A DNA stretch of 64,000 bases from contig NZ_FOAF01000006.1 of NCBI RefSeq assembly GCF_900109575.1, positions 1-64,000 of the forward strand, in the 5' to 3' direction. The DNA is from Olivibacter domesticus (GTDB lineage: Bacteria; Bacteroidota; Bacteroidia; Sphingobacteriales; Sphingobacteriaceae). Made by a program: the position numbers and the translations under genes. The notes under the pieces are model-generated. The model did no database searches. It was not told where the DNA came from and saw nothing but the letters and a program-made list of their open reading frames with translations. The first letter of the stretch is position 1. The number at the start of each line of letters is the position of its first letter. Below are positions 1,272-30,050 of the stretch, one piece after another.

Positions 1272-3650
1272 TTATTTTTTCCAAAATTTCCACAAAGGTT
1301 TATTTTCTTCATCCTGTGCATAGTGTCCATAAGCATAACCATAATAACTCATGCCTTTACCTTTCATTTTTACATCATTAATTACAATGGCATAACTTTT
1401 AATTTTTCTTTCCCTCTTCAAATCTTCCGGTAGGCCTAACATATTATATGGTGTATAATTTGCTCTTGCTACAAACAAAAATAAATCGGCGTAATTACTT
1501 AAAAGCTGTGCATCAGTCACTGCGCCAACAGGTGGTGCATCAATGATAACAATGTCAAACTGTTCTCTTGCCATGGTAAACATTTCCTTCGTTCTAGCCT
1601 TTAAGATCAACTCTGATGGATTTGGAGGAATCGAGCCACAGGCTGCAAAATAGACATTTCCTGTATTATCAACTGCTGTAATAATATCATCCAGCGACAG
1701 TGATTTATCAATAATAAAATTAGAAATTCCCTTTTGCCCAGATTGATATGTTTTAGAAAGTTTCGGTTTTCTTAAATCAAATTCCATCAACAAGACCTTC
1801 TTGTCTGAATGAGCAAAAACATTTGCCAAATTGAGTGCAGTAAAAGACTTTCCTTCTCCCGGCATTCCAGATGATAACAAGACCACCTTATTCCCTTCTT
1901 CTGCCAGTAGAAATTGAACATTTGTACGAAGGCCCCGAAACTGTTCTGCTAGTACGGATCTGGACGATTCAAACTCAAGCAGTTCTTTTCCGGTATAGTT
2001 ATGCCCTAATTCTGCAATCACCGGTGCTGTACTTCTATCTTCTACATCCTTCCTACCTTGAATTTTTGTATTTAAACTATCACTTAAGAAAACCTTGCCC
2101 GTTGGTATTAGAAAGGCAACTATGAAACTTCCAATCCAAATAAAAGACGATTTTGGACTGAATGGGCTCTTATCGGCTTTCGGCCTATCGAGAATAGTAA
2201 TTCCCGCAATACTTGATGTATTCGCTAAAGCCGTTTCTTCTCTTTTTTGTAACAGGAACAGATAAAGCTCTTGTTTCAATTGTTGCTGCCTAGAAAGGTC
2301 CAAAAAAGCACGCTCCTGTTCAGGCACCTCTCGAATGTCACCCTTAACAAAAGTAGCGCTTCTTTCAATTTCCTGCTTATTCACCTCAAGCGTTTTCCTC
2401 GAATTCCTGATATATTCAAAAATATTATCTTTTACAGAGACTATCCGTTGATCTACATTCTTAACGACAGGATTATTAACCCTATATCCCATTAAAAGTC
2501 TTTCTCTTTCTAATACCAAACCGTTGTAATTAGATATCATTGCATTGAATGCCTGATCGGACAATCCATTATTCAAAACCGTTCCCGATATTAAACTTTT
2601 TCCTCCGGGTACATTTAATAACGAATCCACCGCCTTCATAACCTCCATACGTATTTCTACATCCTCCAGCTGTTTTAAATATTCATTATCCCTTTGCAGC
2701 ATAATTTGAGATTGTGCGGAAATATTAGTAAGACCTTTACCTTGCATAAATTGCTGTATCTTTTGCTCGATCCCATTTAACTCAGCATTCACCAAAACAA
2801 TACGTTGATCAATAAACGCAATCGTACTATCGGCAACCCTGCTCTTATTTTGAATATTCTGTTTAATATATTGATCAATATAACGTGTTAAAATAAATTC
2901 ACCCTTCGACTTTAAAGCACAATCCATTTGAATATCAATAATGGTAGTAAGTTTATTTATAATATTGGTCGTTATAGTGGAACGCAGCGAAGACACCGCA
3001 TCATCAAATGGCAATATTTTAATTTTAAATTCCTCTCCAGCTGCTGGCAGTTTCTTCTGAGGATTACTGCTCATCGTAAAAGCACCGTATCCAGGCAGTT
3101 CAAAAGGGCTATTAAAAGGAATATTTTGCAAAGCAATTTCTTCTTGACTTCCATTTGTGTAGACTAAATTGAATTTAGTACTATCTAATGTTGTCATACT
3201 GAGGATTAAAGAACGGTTCAATGTATCCGTTGTACCGTTAAATGTCAGTGTAAAAGGACCATTAAAAATCTCTATTTCCCTTAACGGTTCTTCTTTATAC
3301 CACATGATATTCAACTTAAAATCGCGTACCAGAGCTTCCATTAATGACCTAATTTTCAAAACTTCCGACTGATTATCGACACCACTGGTAGTACCTAGGA
3401 GATTATCAAGGTTTAATTGAGCTGAGGACTGGCTCCCCGATTGTTGATCATTTTCTATCAATATTTTTGCTCCTACATGGTATGCAGGTATAGTATAGTA
3501 ATGCAAATAAATATAGGCAGCAATAAAGCAAACTATTAGACTAAACAAAAAGAGTGGCCATAAACGAATTAATCGCAAAAAATAGTCGTGATAACTAAAG
3601 GCTGTCTTTCGTTTAGGTTGAGGTGTCACTTCCGTATAATTTGTACTCAT
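1272..3650 (-). CDS. Wzc-type polysaccharide copolymerase with BY-kinase domain
   Basis: Inner-membrane protein that controls chain length and export of EPS and autophosphorylates on tyrosine. Residues about 25-50 form the first membrane segment of a Wzz domain. A long periplasmic coiled-coil and GNVR-like region follows, and a second membrane segment sits at about 515-535. The cytoplasmic kinase has Walker A GMPGEGKS (595-602), Walker A' EFDLRKP (about 622) and Walker B VIIDAPP (about 699). The C-terminus holds a tyrosine cluster, YYGYAYGHY (769-777), the usual autophosphorylation site. Length 792 aa is typical. It lies 13 bases after the Wza-like gene. Its partner phosphatase should be the PHP protein at 25082-25816. 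Confidence 0.95.
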   Translation of the reverse strand: MSTNYTEVTPQPKRKTAFSYHDYFLRLIRLWPLFLFSLIVCFIAAYIYLHYYTIPAYHVGAKILIENDQQSGSQSSAQLNLDNLLGTTSGVDNQSEVLKIRSLMEALVRDFKLNIMWYKEEPLREIEIFNGPFTLTFNGTTDTLNRSLILSMTTLDSTKFNLVYTNGSQEEIALQNIPFNSPFELPGYGAFTMSSNPQKKLPAAGEEFKIKILPFDDAVSSLRSTITTNIINKLTTIIDIQMDCALKSKGEFILTRYIDQYIKQNIQNKSRVADSTIAFIDQRIVLVNAELNGIEQKIQQFMQGKGLTNISAQSQIMLQRDNEYLKQLEDVEIRMEVMKAVDSLLNVPGGKSLISGTVLNNGLSDQAFNAMISNYNGLVLERERLLMGYRVNNPVVKNVDQRIVSVKDNIFEYIRNSRKTLEVNKQEIERSATFVKGDIREVPEQERAFLDLSRQQQLKQELYLFLLQKREETALANTSSIAGITILDRPKADKSPFSPKSSFIWIGSFIVAFLIPTGKVFLSDSLNTKIQGRKDVEDRSTAPVIAELGHNYTGKELLEFESSRSVLAEQFRGLRTNVQFLLAEEGNKVVLLSSGMPGEGKSFTALNLANVFAHSDKKVLLMEFDLRKPKLSKTYQSGQKGISNFIIDKSLSLDDIITAVDNTGNVYFAACGSIPPNPSELILKARTKEMFTMAREQFDIVIIDAPPVGAVTDAQLLSNYADLFLFVARANYTPYNMLGLPEDLKRERKIKSYAIVINDVKMKGKGMSYYGYAYGHYAQDEENKPLWKFWKK

Positions 3651-24571: not shown

Positions 24572-24763
24572 TTACTCGGCATAGAGTATAAGGTAATCAT
24601 TATCGATTTCAAAATCCTCATACACTAATTGGCGATCCGTATCAGCTCGTAAAAGAGATTTACCTTCACCTCTCTCTGCACAAATCTTAGCAAGTTCCCC
24701 CTCATTAAGATGCAGCCTCTGCCATTGCCCCAGTTTAGCCGGCATATTACTTTTATTATTCAT
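24572..24763 (-). CDS. Small hypothetical protein, 63 aa
   Basis: I do not recognise this protein. It starts at an ATG (MNNKSNMPAKLGQWQRLHL), is soluble and mixed-charge with an acidic C-terminal half (RQLVYEDFEIDNDYLILYAE), and has no signal or membrane segment. The amino-acid composition looks protein-like, unlike the translated AT-rich surroundings, and a stem-loop follows its stop. It lies between the phosphatase/WcaJ-like genes and the main EPS run on the same strand, so it may be a small regulator or partner of the EPS machinery. That role is inferred from position only. Confidence 0.5.
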   Translation of the reverse strand: MNNKSNMPAKLGQWQRLHLNEGELAKICAERGEGKSLLRADTDRQLVYEDFEIDNDYLILYAE

Positions 24764-25081: not shown

Positions 25082-25816
25082 TTAAGAAAATAAAAGTTGA
25101 TTTTGCAGATTTAGTCCACCTAAATCTTTATGTGCTTGGCCACTTTTAACATATTGTGTAATCTTTCCTAAATGACGCTCATGGTGTAGATCAGTACCTA
25201 CCAGATCGTATAATCCATTTTTTATAAGGTACATGGTAGCTTTCGCTACTTCCTTGCCATAATAACCTGTTGGTGAAAGCAAATTCAATTGCAATAAGCA
25301 ACCTAGCTCCTTTAAACGGTGATATGCTTGCGGTTTTTGAAAATAAAAAGTATAGCGTTCAGGATGGGCCATAATAGGTTTATAGCCTTTCGTAACGATT
25401 TCAAAAATAGTTTGCTCCAGTTGCATGGGTTCTGCCAGCCAGGGCATTTCTATCAGCAAAAAATTATTAGGAAAAGTATTTAGTCTATTATTTTTTAACA
25501 AACTCGCGAATTGCTCTCCCAACATATGTTCAGCCGCAGCAAACGTGTAAGCATCTATATTTTCTTTTCTTAATTCATCCGTTAACGTATGATGTACTGC
25601 TGCAATTATTTCAGGAGTATTAGGGTACACTTCATCGTAAACATGAGGTGTTATGATAAAACGACTCAACCCTAGCGCTTGTAATTTTTTAATAAAATCA
25701 ATACTGGTGACAAGCGTTTGCACCCCGTCATCTATACCTGGTAAAAGGTGAGAATGTATATCCGTTCCCATCCATTGCAGATCTGTATGGCCTTGTTTTT
25801 TAAATAAACTAAACAT
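25082..25816 (-). CDS. PHP-type tyrosine phosphatase (CpsB/CapC/YwqE family)
   Basis: Manganese-dependent phosphatase expected to dephosphorylate the tyrosine cluster of the Wzc-like kinase. The ATG at 25816 (MFSLFKKQGH) is preferred; the longer frame would start with TTG. All PHP metal-site motifs are present: DIHSHLLPGIDDG (residues 19-31), ITPH (55-58), EH (96-97), MAHPERY (149-155) and VGTDLHH (206-212). Length 244 aa is typical. It is cotranscribed 48 bases after the WcaJ-like gene. A degenerate relative is encoded at 29370-30050. Confidence 0.93.
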   Translation of the reverse strand: MFSLFKKQGHTDLQWMGTDIHSHLLPGIDDGVQTLVTSIDFIKKLQALGLSRFIITPHVYDEVYPNTPEIIAAVHHTLTDELRKENIDAYTFAAAEHMLGEQFASLLKNNRLNTFPNNFLLIEMPWLAEPMQLEQTIFEIVTKGYKPIMAHPERYTFYFQKPQAYHRLKELGCLLQLNLLSPTGYYGKEVAKATMYLIKNGLYDLVGTDLHHERHLGKITQYVKSGQAHKDLGGLNLQNQLLFS

Positions 25817-25864
25817 TTTTCCTAATTTCAAACACCATCAATTCCTAACCAACCAATCGGCTAT

Positions 25865-27283
25865 CTAATAAGCCTGCTTGTCTCCAATAATCATTCTCCA
25901 AAAAGTCAAAAATATGATTTTTAAATCAAGTAAAAAGGCCCAATGTTCAATATACCAAATATCATGTTCAATTCGGGCTTTCAAGAGATTTGGGTTAGCA
26001 GATTCACCCCTTAACCCATTTACCTGTGCCCAACCGGTAATACCGGGTTTTGCCTGATGCCTTACCAAGTAATTTTTCACCAGATAGGTAGATTCGAGGT
26101 TCATTAACGAAGCATGAGGACGTGGTCCAACTACAGACATTTCTCCTCGTAATACGTTTAAAAACTGTGGAAATTCGTCCAAACTAGTTTTTCTCAAGAT
26201 CCTTCCTACCTTCGTTATACGCGGGTCATCTTTCTGCGCCTGTTGAAATTTACCTTGATTATTTGTGTCAGGCGCTTTTACATACATAGACCTAAATTTA
26301 TAACATAAAAAGGGTCTATTACGTTTTCCCCACCGTTCTTGTTTATAAAAAACAGGTCCTCTTGAATTCAATTTAATAGCAATAGCTATGATCGGGAAAA
26401 GCCACGAGCATACAAAAATTAGCACGAAACCGCTAAAAATCAAATCAAAACCCCGCTTTGCCGCCCGGTTATAAATATCCTCTAGCGGTTCATTACGCAC
26501 ACTTAATAAAGGAAATCCGCCTATCATACTAAAACTGTACATTCCAGGACTACTCATTTGGAACACATTCGGTATAATCCGTAAGCGCACGGCATGAGCA
26601 CTTAATACAGAAGCTATTTCCTTTGCATTATATGGTGCATCGGGCTCTTCCGTAATAAACACTTCATCAATATCATCGATATTTCCTAATGGCTGACCGC
26701 CCAACATCAACACTCTTCCGTCCTTTTCATTGCTTGCGGGACGAGAAAGACTTAGTACTCCTTGTACATAACGGACCAACTCATAACCGTAAAATTTGTT
26801 CTCACGGATATATTTACAAAATAATTGGCCGTTCTCTCCCCCCCCAATAACCAACGCTCTCCTTCTTAAATAGCCATGCCTAAAAACAAGCAAGTAGATT
26901 TTTTTTAGCAAAATTTTACTTAGCGGTATTAAAAACCCCAACAGTACACCATAAATCACTACAAAAGTTCTCGAATAATCATTTTCTTTCACCGCAAAAA
27001 TGAAAAGCACTACAAGCATAATTTGCCAAAGTATAGTGTTAGCAGTTTTAAAAAGTTCTCGCATTTGGTTCTCCTGTATTTTATCTTCGTATAAACGGCT
27101 TGAACGAGCAGTAAAATACCAGCCGCATAATAAAAACAATAAGAAACCTAAATCGTAAAGCCCCAGTTGATAAAAATACTCATAGTTACTCAGGCGAACA
27201 GCCACAAAAAACGAGAGAATAATAAAAAAGAAGTCTGAAACTACATGCGTAAAATGAAAGAAATAACGGCTACTTAAGTCCAT
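25865..27283 (-). CDS. Undecaprenyl-phosphate glucose/galactose phosphotransferase (WcaJ-like)
   Basis: Initiates the EPS repeat unit by moving a hexose-1-phosphate to undecaprenyl phosphate on the inner membrane. The N-terminal half has four membrane helices and a CoA-binding-like domain (RRRALVIGGGENGQLFCKYI). The C-terminal bacterial sugar-transferase domain (from about residue 275) has AAKRGFDLIFSGFVLIFV, SRGPVFYKQERWGKRNRPF, CYKFRSMYVKAPD, RKTSLDEFPQFLNVLRGEMSVVGPRPH and KPGITGWAQVNGLRGE. Length 472 aa fits. It is the first gene of the whole minus-strand EPS region; the regulatory unit starting at 27642 is divergent from it. Confidence 0.96.
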   Translation of the reverse strand: MDLSSRYFFHFTHVVSDFFFIILSFFVAVRLSNYEYFYQLGLYDLGFLLFLLCGWYFTARSSRLYEDKIQENQMRELFKTANTILWQIMLVVLFIFAVKENDYSRTFVVIYGVLLGFLIPLSKILLKKIYLLVFRHGYLRRRALVIGGGENGQLFCKYIRENKFYGYELVRYVQGVLSLSRPASNEKDGRVLMLGGQPLGNIDDIDEVFITEEPDAPYNAKEIASVLSAHAVRLRIIPNVFQMSSPGMYSFSMIGGFPLLSVRNEPLEDIYNRAAKRGFDLIFSGFVLIFVCSWLFPIIAIAIKLNSRGPVFYKQERWGKRNRPFLCYKFRSMYVKAPDTNNQGKFQQAQKDDPRITKVGRILRKTSLDEFPQFLNVLRGEMSVVGPRPHASLMNLESTYLVKNYLVRHQAKPGITGWAQVNGLRGESANPNLLKARIEHDIWYIEHWAFLLDLKIIFLTFWRMIIGDKQAY

Positions 27284-27641: not shown

Positions 27642-28523
27642 GTGAAAGAAAGACTATTAAACCCACAAGCATTATTATTTAAATTGTTACATACGAAACC
27701 AAACTCAGCCACTAAACATTACGCCAAGGTCGTTCGGTTAAAAAAAAGACCATCGCGACTTTCGGTGCTGGCTACACAAAGCTCTAAATTTGGTATAATG
27801 CTTATCGGTTTTATACTTTATAGACGTAATAAAAACACACAAAGGCAGATTATTGAATTACAGAAAATTAATGGAGCACTCCAAACGCAATATGATGTTT
27901 TAAAAGACACCAATGATAAAAACGAATTATTGTTAAATGAAATTCACCACCGTGTGAAAAATAATCTACAGTTTGTGTCCTCTTTATTGAACATGAAGAT
28001 GCGCTCCTCCGACAATGCAGAAGCCAAACAGGCGCTACACGAGAGTGCCGTAAGGTTACAATCCATGTTGTTAGTGCACCAAAAACTATACAGTGAAGAT
28101 CGTCAAGGCTTCGTAGACATGAAGCAATATACGCACGACTTAGTGCATTATCTTTTACAAAGTTACATTACAAATAAGCATCCCATCCTCCCACATATAT
28201 CGGTAGGCACTATAAAATTTGAAACCGATACAGTTATTCCTTTTGGCCTACTACTCACAGAATTAATAACCAATTCCATTAAGTATGCAAAACCTAAAGA
28301 ACAAAAACTACATTTAAACATTGAGCTGTCCCCTTTACAACATGGGCAATACTGCCTGCACTACAGTGACAATGGAAAAGGTCTTTCTTCTCCAATTGAC
28401 TTCACGAGTGTAAACACCATGGGATTACGCTTACTGTACAACCTCACCAAACAACTAAAAGGAACGATTCATTACGAATTCAGAGAAATCTCCATTTTTA
28501 AAATTAATTTCAGAAGTATTTAG
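27642..28523 (+). CDS. HisKA_2 sensor histidine kinase lacking a sensor domain
   Basis: Histidine kinase of the HWE/HisKA_2 type. The phosphoacceptor region EIHHRVKNNLQFVSSLLNMK (from residue 100, His102/103) and ATPase motifs LLLTELITNSIKYAKP (N box), YSDNGKGL (G1) and MGLRLLYNLTKQLKG are intact. Upstream of a coiled linker (about 62-95) only a short hydrophobic piece, FGIMLIGFILY (50-60), remains. Relatives in Bacteroidota normally have several hundred residues of periplasmic or TPR sensor before a full membrane helix, so this looks N-terminally truncated. The start is GTG; an overlapping ATG is followed at once by TGA. The stop is directly followed by the ATG of the response regulator. Confidence 0.85.
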   Translation: MKERLLNPQALLFKLLHTKPNSATKHYAKVVRLKKRPSRLSVLATQSSKFGIMLIGFILYRRNKNTQRQIIELQKINGALQTQYDVLKDTNDKNELLLNEIHHRVKNNLQFVSSLLNMKMRSSDNAEAKQALHESAVRLQSMLLVHQKLYSEDRQGFVDMKQYTHDLVHYLLQSYITNKHPILPHISVGTIKFETDTVIPFGLLLTELITNSIKYAKPKEQKLHLNIELSPLQHGQYCLHYSDNGKGLSSPIDFTSVNTMGLRLLYNLTKQLKGTIHYEFREISIFKINFRSI

Positions 28524-29248: not shown

Positions 29249-29368
29249 ATGGTTTACACACAAAAAGCAGTCATTCAAATACAAAAAATTCAAGAAATAT
29301 TACAACAAACAATAGATCATCCTATATTTATACTGAAGAAAATGATACGCAGTAATAAAAACATATAG
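29249..29368 (+). CDS. Possible 39-aa leader ORF before the pseudo-phosphatase
   Basis: An ATG at 29249 opens a 39-residue frame (start MVYTQKAVIQIQKIQ, end MIRSNKNI) that ends with TAG at 29366-29368, one base before the ATG of the next gene. It is Gln/Ile/Lys-rich with no recognised family. It spans the left arm and loop of a perfect inverted repeat whose right arm covers the next start codon. It could be a leader peptide whose translation opens that hairpin. It is too short for composition to prove coding. Confidence 0.35.
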   Translation: MVYTQKAVIQIQKIQEILQQTIDHPIFILKKMIRSNKNI

Positions 29369-29376
29369 GATGATCT
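29314..29376 (+). promoter_or_regulatory. Perfect 14-base inverted repeat burying a start codon
   Basis: Arms AGATCATCCTATAT (29314-29327) and ATATAGGATGATCT (29363-29376) are exact reverse complements separated by 35 bases. The right arm contains the ATG (29370-29372) of the pseudo-phosphatase gene and the stop codon of the 39-aa leader ORF. In the mRNA this would form a stem that hides the start codon, a layout suited to translational control. A protein-binding site or remnant of a small mobile element are other explanations. Confidence 0.65.
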
Positions 29377-30050
29377 CAATTCTACCAAACGATACTACTT
29401 CTATTTCAGTAGGCAGTTTATTAGGCGTCGACATGCATATCGATTTGCTCAATTCGAGCAGTGATTTCTTTGCCACCAATGATGTAACTGAAGGCCTCAA
29501 AATTTCGGGTTATAATGCTATTATTGGCGCTGCATTAGACAATGAAAGTGCTAATCAAACGATTATGGAAGCAGCCCTTCCAATTCGCACGGTACGTCTT
29601 TATCACCTAGAAACGGAAACAGCAGAACTACAAGAAAGTGAACTTGTATGTTTTGGAAAAAATTATGTGCTCTTACAAGCCAGTTCAGCGATCTTAAGTA
29701 AAGACCTTGAAGATGGCATAGCCGATCTCAAACAAAGAGGTTATACACCTATATTAGTTAAAGCCGAGCAGTATGAATGTTTGCAAGACAATTATCGTAA
29801 CATACAACGTGTAATTCTCCAAGGTTGTTTATTTGAAACGGACATGCTGTCTTTAACAGGGCATAATGGAATCGAGTCCAAACGTTTGGCACAAAAGTTA
29901 TTTAAAGAAGAACGCGTAAGTTTTGCCGGATCTGGAGCTTGCAGCGCTGACGAACAATATATGGTAAATGAGCTTTTCCATTCCAAAAAATTAGTTAAGC
30001 AGCTACAATCGCCACAGATAAAGAACAAAGAGTTACTAACAACATATTAA
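29370..30050 (+). CDS. Degenerate CpsB/YwqE-like PHP protein (predicted pseudo-phosphatase)
   Basis: A 226-aa protein that aligns along its length with the PHP tyrosine phosphatase at 25082-25816. Matching segments are VDMHIDLL for TDIHSHLL, GYNAIIGAALDNES for GLSRFIITPHVYDE, NYVLLQASS for NFLLIEMPW, RGYTPILVKAEQY for KGYKPIMAHPERY, and GCLFETDMLSLTGHNG for GCLLQLNLLSPTGYYG. The metal ligands are lost: HSH is HID (23-25), the ITPH His is gone, HPER is KAEQ (131-134), and GTDLHH is GSGACS (187-192). Catalysis is therefore unlikely. The reading frame is intact and free of stops, which points to a retained non-catalytic role, such as binding the BY-kinase tail or another phosphoprotein. Homology is my reading of the two sequences; function is inference. 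Confidence 0.75.
   Translation: MISILPNDTTSISVGSLLGVDMHIDLLNSSSDFFATNDVTEGLKISGYNAIIGAALDNESANQTIMEAALPIRTVRLYHLETETAELQESELVCFGKNYVLLQASSAILSKDLEDGIADLKQRGYTPILVKAEQYECLQDNYRNIQRVILQGCLFETDMLSLTGHNGIESKRLAQKLFKEERVSFAGSGACSADEQYMVNELFHSKKLVKQLQSPQIKNKELLTTY

Follow-up and report, generated by a model that had tools for sequence, protein, structure and literature searches.

CpsB/Cps4B of Streptococcus and YwqE of Bacillus are PHP-type protein tyrosine phosphatases, and the three metals of Cps4B are described as being coordinated by His5, His7, Asp14, His42, Glu80, Glu108, His136, Asp199 and His201, with the phosphate held by the three metals together with Arg139 and Arg206 (PMC2777267). Php1 of Porphyromonas gingivalis is reported to dephosphorylate the Tyr-tailed kinase Ptk1 and to be needed for EPS (PMC6759763), and CcpS of Streptococcus suis is reported to bind and inhibit CpsB (PMC10148854). 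An inactive PHP domain is described as being kept for a structural role in Escherichia coli DNA polymerase III (PMC3666897), and conserved families of bacterial pseudokinases have already been described (PMC12599244). Among the titles and abstracts listed from an open-access library, which lacks most subscription papers, none was on a pseudophosphatase of the CpsB/YwqE family.

We analysed a 64,000-nt stretch of DNA from Olivibacter domesticus (the window), which encodes an intact CpsB and a paralogue that, as far as its sequence can tell, is catalytically dead (Table 1). This dead CpsB resembles CpsB/Cps4B and YwqE in its homologous sequence, in having them as its sole PDB fold matches at E<0.001 and in its EPS neighbourhood, but it has lost eight of the nine ligands and the catalytic Arg, has a shorter N-terminal part and lies beside a regulator cassette of its own. 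Php1 shares its family and phylum and pairs with a Tyr-tailed kinase in EPS production; however, Php1 has its catalytic residues and is active (PMC6759763). The polymerase III domain has a PHP fold that, like the dead CpsB, lost metal ligands, and it is retained for structural reasons (PMC3666897), but it is a domain of a polymerase, whereas the dead CpsB is a free-standing paralogue with its own regulator. An earlier note had recognized the gene as a pseudophosphatase; it mentioned neither the two-component cassette, which is conserved, nor a site of LytTR layout ahead of the dead gene, nor dead copies of CpsB outside the genus. The site and the survey of CpsB frames across the family are new here.

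Table 1 Positions of the dead CpsB gene, its putative control elements and the EPS-related genes of the window
Feature	Position	Strand	Evidence or detail
Wzc-like tyrosine kinase, C-terminal tail SYYGYAYGHY	1272..3650	-	GNVR + AAA_31
Intact CpsB, all nine ligands	25082..25816 (25085-25831 in the profile search)	-	PF19567, alignment
WcaJ-type sugar transferase, divergent neighbour	25865..27283	-	PF02397, 220 bits
Short HisKA_2-type histidine kinase, 293 aa, without Pfam sensor domain	27642..28523	+	PF07568
LytTR response regulator, 231 aa	28524..29219	+	PF00072 + PF04397
LytTR-layout putative operator, 9-12-9 direct repeats	29253..29285	+	repeats 29253-29261 and 29274-29282, 12 bp between
-7-box-like TATATTTA	29323..29330	+	38 nt after the 32-nt site pattern; TAnATTTR
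Predicted dead CpsB/YwqE paralogue, 226 aa	29370..30050	+	PF19567, ligand loss, orthologues in genus

The frame of the dead gene is unbroken, as the earlier note had read it, and opens with ATG, and the relation to the EPS tyrosine phosphatase that the note proposed is borne out by profile and fold matches alike. The PF19567 (CpsB_CapC) profile matched the protein with 63.8 bits (E 2e-17; curated cut-off 27 bits), through residues 82-195 only, and the intact CpsB of the window with 131.2 bits. A profile of four Olivibacter orthologues retrieved three distinct solved sequences at E<=0.1, namely YwqE (3qy6/3qy7) and two CpsB proteins (2wjd/2wje/2wjf and 3qy8). The orthologues are 226, 225, 225 and 203 aa long, against 244 aa for the intact window CpsB. 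The claim that the two window paralogues align along their whole length was generous: the N-terminal part is shortened and poorly aligned, with the TPH stretch gapped in three alignments and opposite TND in a fourth.

AlphaFold2 models of the dead protein and, as a control, of the intact window CpsB were each built from the same five sequences. The dead-protein model had a mean pLDDT of 66; residues 1-74 lay <50, whereas values were ~90 over most of the C-terminal half. The control was better ordered and reached a mean pLDDT of 74.7 and a pTM of 0.77, with nearly all of its first 22 residues <50. Foldseek matched the dead-protein model at E<0.001 to 3qy6, 3qy8 and 2wjd only (TM 0.45-0.51 by query length), so the check proposed earlier returned YwqE and CpsB solely and no different fold, in a model whose N-terminal third is unreliable. 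Because residues 1-74 of the model are unreliable, the YwqE/CpsB fold is predicted for the C-terminal part of the protein only; strand 52-55 and helix 67-84 of the intact model could not be clearly matched to any element there. Relatives for modelling were also sought in viral contigs, where none of 65 pattern stretches proved to be a relative.

Alignment with Cps4B revealed that the dead protein of the window keeps the His5 equivalent alone. The CpsB alignment in which the orthologues were read had 58 rows (53 intact and five dead), after removal of the duplicate or truncated rows L002, L004, L087, L088 and L089. The four destroyed metal-site motifs were all as listed in the earlier note (HSH to HID, ITPH without its His, HPER to KAEQ and GTDLHH to GSGACS), and that list was even too mild, as the Asp14 equivalent is also lost and the Glu80 and Glu108 equivalents are replaced by Leu and Gln. 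A His at the place of His42 was absent in every alignment made, though gap placement varies. The catalytic Arg139 of the CpsB/YwqE family is Gln in the window protein, and across the four orthologues this position reads Q, Q, T and R, that is, it is kept in one of four; the His201 position reads Cys, Arg, Arg and Ile. The trinuclear metal site is incomplete in every orthologue, with 7-9 of the nine ligands missing.

The dead gene is carried by four of the five Olivibacter genomes (the window genome, G001, G003 and G004), a genus of the family Sphingobacteriaceae. Identity to the window protein is 58, 53 and 43% in G001, G004 and G003, respectively; here, as in the ligand analysis and the AU tests below, the N-terminal extension of the G001 frame was left off and its start taken at MFSIL. 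Searched against 301 family genomes, the four-row profile scored the orthologues at 310-408 bits, and no other place exceeded 96.6 bits; the four form one clade (support 100/100). In the codon comparison, pN (0.24-0.42) lay far below pS (0.68-0.87), and therefore the dead protein is under constraint. We dropped a single dN/dS figure, as only one of the six pairs had unsaturated dS; its dN/dS was 0.171. The adjoining kinase gene, trimmed by 40-90 N-terminal codons before comparison, had similar pN/pS values. The frame is open in all four genomes, the ligand loss is shared and the relatives form a clade with one unsaturated pair well constrained, which agrees with the earlier view of a maintained paralogue; shared loss and constraint in all four orthologues mark it as a predicted pseudophosphatase, and we are close to certain that the dead enzyme is kept for a function. 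The stem branch to the orthologues is long (1.85 and 2.05). Olivibacter has two CpsB groups, and AU tests of descent of the dead copies from either one rejected neither alternative (p 0.204 and 0.129, with long branches).

In all four carriers the dead gene is the third of a cassette, always preceded by a HisKA_2 histidine kinase and a LytTR response regulator, and the cassette is divergent from a WcaJ-type sugar-transferase gene of an EPS cluster, which supports the proposed EPS linkage of the dead gene. Kinase and regulator adjoin one another as expected of a LytTR-type two-component system; the regulator was recognized by Pfam in the window and by orthology in the other three genomes, where the regulators beside dead cpsB are 74, 67 and 58% identical to that of the window. 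The cassette kinases are 286-334 aa long, and all four have HisKA_2 and none a Pfam sensor domain or TPR match; in the fifth genus genome, which lacks the dead CpsB, the best kinase match is 631 aa long and has a TPR match. From gene order, the WcaJ-type gene appears to lead the minus-strand EPS genes as an operon. The Wzc-like kinase of the window ends in a tyrosine-rich tail, as the earlier note had implied.

Between the regulator and dead genes of all four carriers lies a direct-repeat site. LytTR regulators are described as binding direct repeats of 9 bp, in most cases with 12 bp between them (PMC6193735), and the Olivibacter site has the same repeat length and spacing and the same location upstream of a promoter; it differs in its half-site, which is TTTAnAnAC-like rather than ACCnnTTA-like, and in its putative target, a dead enzyme. 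A TAnATTTR box follows the site at 38, 38, 37 and 37 nt, in DNA that is AT-rich there, and is close to the -7 consensus TAnnTTTG, which is a flavobacterial one (PMC9723704). With at most one mismatch, the site pattern occurred in four of 101 family genomes, once per carrier and nowhere else, and a stricter pattern with at most three mismatches recovered these four sites again, with no match in G002; the fifth genus genome has neither the dead gene nor the site. A two-mismatch search gave one extra match in the window genome (G000 C19), set aside as a further target as it lies between convergent genes. The pattern was derived from the same four intergenic sequences, and therefore its presence there is by construction and the evidence consists of layout, spacing and absence elsewhere only. 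Among offsets 14-30, offset 21 had the highest summed repeat identity (38; runner-up offset 23, 36), and 2 of 2,000 sets of dinucleotide shuffles reached 38 at offset 21, although the four sequences compared are not independent but related. For G004 and G003, the site is equalled in score by a repeat with a different start. By its layout only, the site qualifies as a putative 9-12-9 operator upstream of the predicted promoter of its putative target. Because a conserved LytTR-layout site stands at a set distance from the box and is unmatched elsewhere, the dead protein seems to be what its own two-component system controls, and regulation of dead CpsB by its neighbouring regulator is probable. 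As a separate observation, a 14-bp perfect inverted repeat (29314-29327 / 29363-29376) has its left arm over the -7-like box and its right arm across the start codon of the dead gene. Other inverted repeats have one arm on the box in G001 (12 nt, 92%) and G003 (13 nt, 92%), and G004 has none there; the repeat sequence is not conserved among carriers, and we did not retain it as a control element.

Ligand loss of this kind is confined to few of the CpsBs surveyed. A PF19567 search of 111 family genomes returned 114 rows, spread over 86 of them. With three pieces of a broken G121 gene left out, 111 open frames remained; the nine ligands are all present in 101 frames, three are missing from one, and 7-9 are missing from the other nine. 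The loss is not chance, because 101 of 111 family frames keep every ligand. The nine dead frames fall in Olivibacter (four), g4 (G068, G139 and G047), g19 (G022) and g17 (G041), and each of the ten genomes with a ligand-losing frame also has an intact one. Dead copies keep ligand residues in 8 of 81 cells, whereas each of the 41 non-ligand columns with >=85% constancy among intact frames is, on average, retained by 4.15 of the nine; Gly177, Gly189 and Gly192 are kept in all nine, and the GCxxQ...LSLxGxxG stretch is among the best kept. The metal site is, on this comparison of sequences, erased and part of the C-terminal half retained. A single clade of all nine dead copies was not rejected (p 0.32), and therefore we do not claim convergence. 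The sole intermediate of the survey was L181 (G153:C21:396860-397630), with three of nine ligands lost; the broken gene, L121 (G121:C117), is interrupted by stops or frameshifts and is the sole CpsB found in its genome.

The surroundings of the dead copies vary. In G022 a wcaJ-cpsB pair adjoins another wcaJ-like gene, and the dead copy comes after the latter. In the g4 genomes the dead copy lies in an EPS cluster, and the gene before it is of Polysacc_synt_2 type (Pfam on G068; the G139 and G047 genes are 63 and 54% identical). The most diverged dead CpsB is that of G041 (L120 5818-6567), around which no gene within 13 kb besides the dead copy itself matched the EPS proteins of the window. The window kinase and regulator had no tblastn match around the five non-Olivibacter dead copies, in stretches of 11-18 kb; the G068 and G047 contigs extend only 0.3 and 1.6 kb beyond their dead genes.

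We propose that a dedicated two-component system switches on production of the dead CpsB, which may modulate the phosphotyrosine cycle of EPS without any enzymatic activity of its own, a reading to which we give a probability of about 0.5. The LytTR regulator would bind its putative site and switch the dead gene on; the dead protein, through its better conserved C-terminal part and not through the emptied pocket, would then bind the Wzc-like kinase or the active CpsB, and such binding would shift kinase phosphorylation and EPS output. That the target lies within the Wzc-CpsB cycle is an even call, and that the protein would antagonize the active phosphatase is a tentative direction, somewhat less likely than not. 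CcpS offers the same logic, a regulated protein that inhibits CpsB by binding, but it is switched by Ser/Thr-kinase phosphorylation, and the abstract of that report does not call it a CpsB homologue (PMC10148854). The locus suggests a role as regulated binding protein for a dead enzyme of some soil bacteria. It is nearly an even chance, though somewhat below one, that dead CpsBs are recurrent capsule/EPS regulators of the Sphingobacteriaceae, placed in Olivibacter under a dedicated two-component system of which the dead enzyme is the only recognizable target, and that outside signals thus reach the EPS tyrosine-kinase cycle. A dead phosphatase with its own putative promoter site and two-component system suggests how an outside signal could reach the EPS phosphotyrosine switch, in a form open to testing, and the survey yields a comparison set of nine dead copies, each from a genome that also has an intact partner.

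The main rival is a feedback role on the short histidine kinase, in which the dead CpsB would be the missing input module of that kinase, sensing the state of the EPS machinery and binding the kinase; the loop would close, because the dead gene itself would be the target of the regulator. The fixed linkage of kinase and dead gene fits such an adaptor, as do the short, sensor-less kinases of all four cassettes beside the longer TPR-matching one of the genome without the dead gene. However, the N-terminal part of these kinases, in which a possible membrane segment was read by eye, may itself do the sensing, and no such kinase was found in the 11-18-kb stretches around the dead CpsBs of three other genera, and we regard this role as unlikely. 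The earlier note had suggested binding of the phosphotyrosine tail of the Wzc-like kinase, which would shield or titrate it; we take this as binding by the emptied pocket. The Tyr-rich tail, descent from the CpsB family and the EPS neighbourhood speak for it, but in Cps4B it is the three metals, Arg139 and Arg206 that hold the phosphate (PMC2777267), and the His of TPH is missing from every alignment; because no orthologue has a complete metal site and only one of the four still has an Arg at the Arg139 position, the proposal is weakened and the odds are well against it.

The position of dead copies next to wcaJ-like genes in Olivibacter and G022 could point to a scaffold for the WcaJ-type transferase or another adjoining membrane EPS enzyme, but the three g4 genomes have the Polysacc_synt_2-type gene before the dead copy instead, and the G041 copy has no EPS-protein match within 13 kb, which leaves a scaffold improbable. 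Fast evolution along the long stem branch and the broken CpsB of G121 are what a functionless duplicate heading for loss would predict. Such decay is nevertheless strongly disfavoured, and we consider it very improbable, given the open frames in all four carriers, the excess of pS over pN and the conservation of both gene order and promoter layout. That the active site has been rebuilt, giving a phosphatase or some other hydrolase, is scarcely credible: the equivalents of Asp3 and of the HPER Glu are kept in all nine dead copies, but the His201 replacements vary among orthologues and the old ligand positions hold no common new set of His, Asp or Glu.

Against the preferred reading, a regulated non-enzymatic modulator, counts the finding that no intact cpsB lies behind the divergent wcaJ in G001 and G004, as do the extra two-mismatch site in the window genome and the dead copies of three other genera, around which the cassette was not found in the 11-18-kb stretches searched. 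A cpsB remnant was sought in the gaps after wcaJ in both genomes and set aside, with no tblastn match at E<=1. The window has a 63-aa small ORF (24572-24763, minus strand) between cpsB and the next EPS gene, and the G001 and G004 gaps each contain an ORF of 63-64 aa that, by eye, resembles it. The gap after the WcaJ-type gene in G001 (L100 13487-14324) also contains a 210-bp tandem repeat in four copies with 96% matches.
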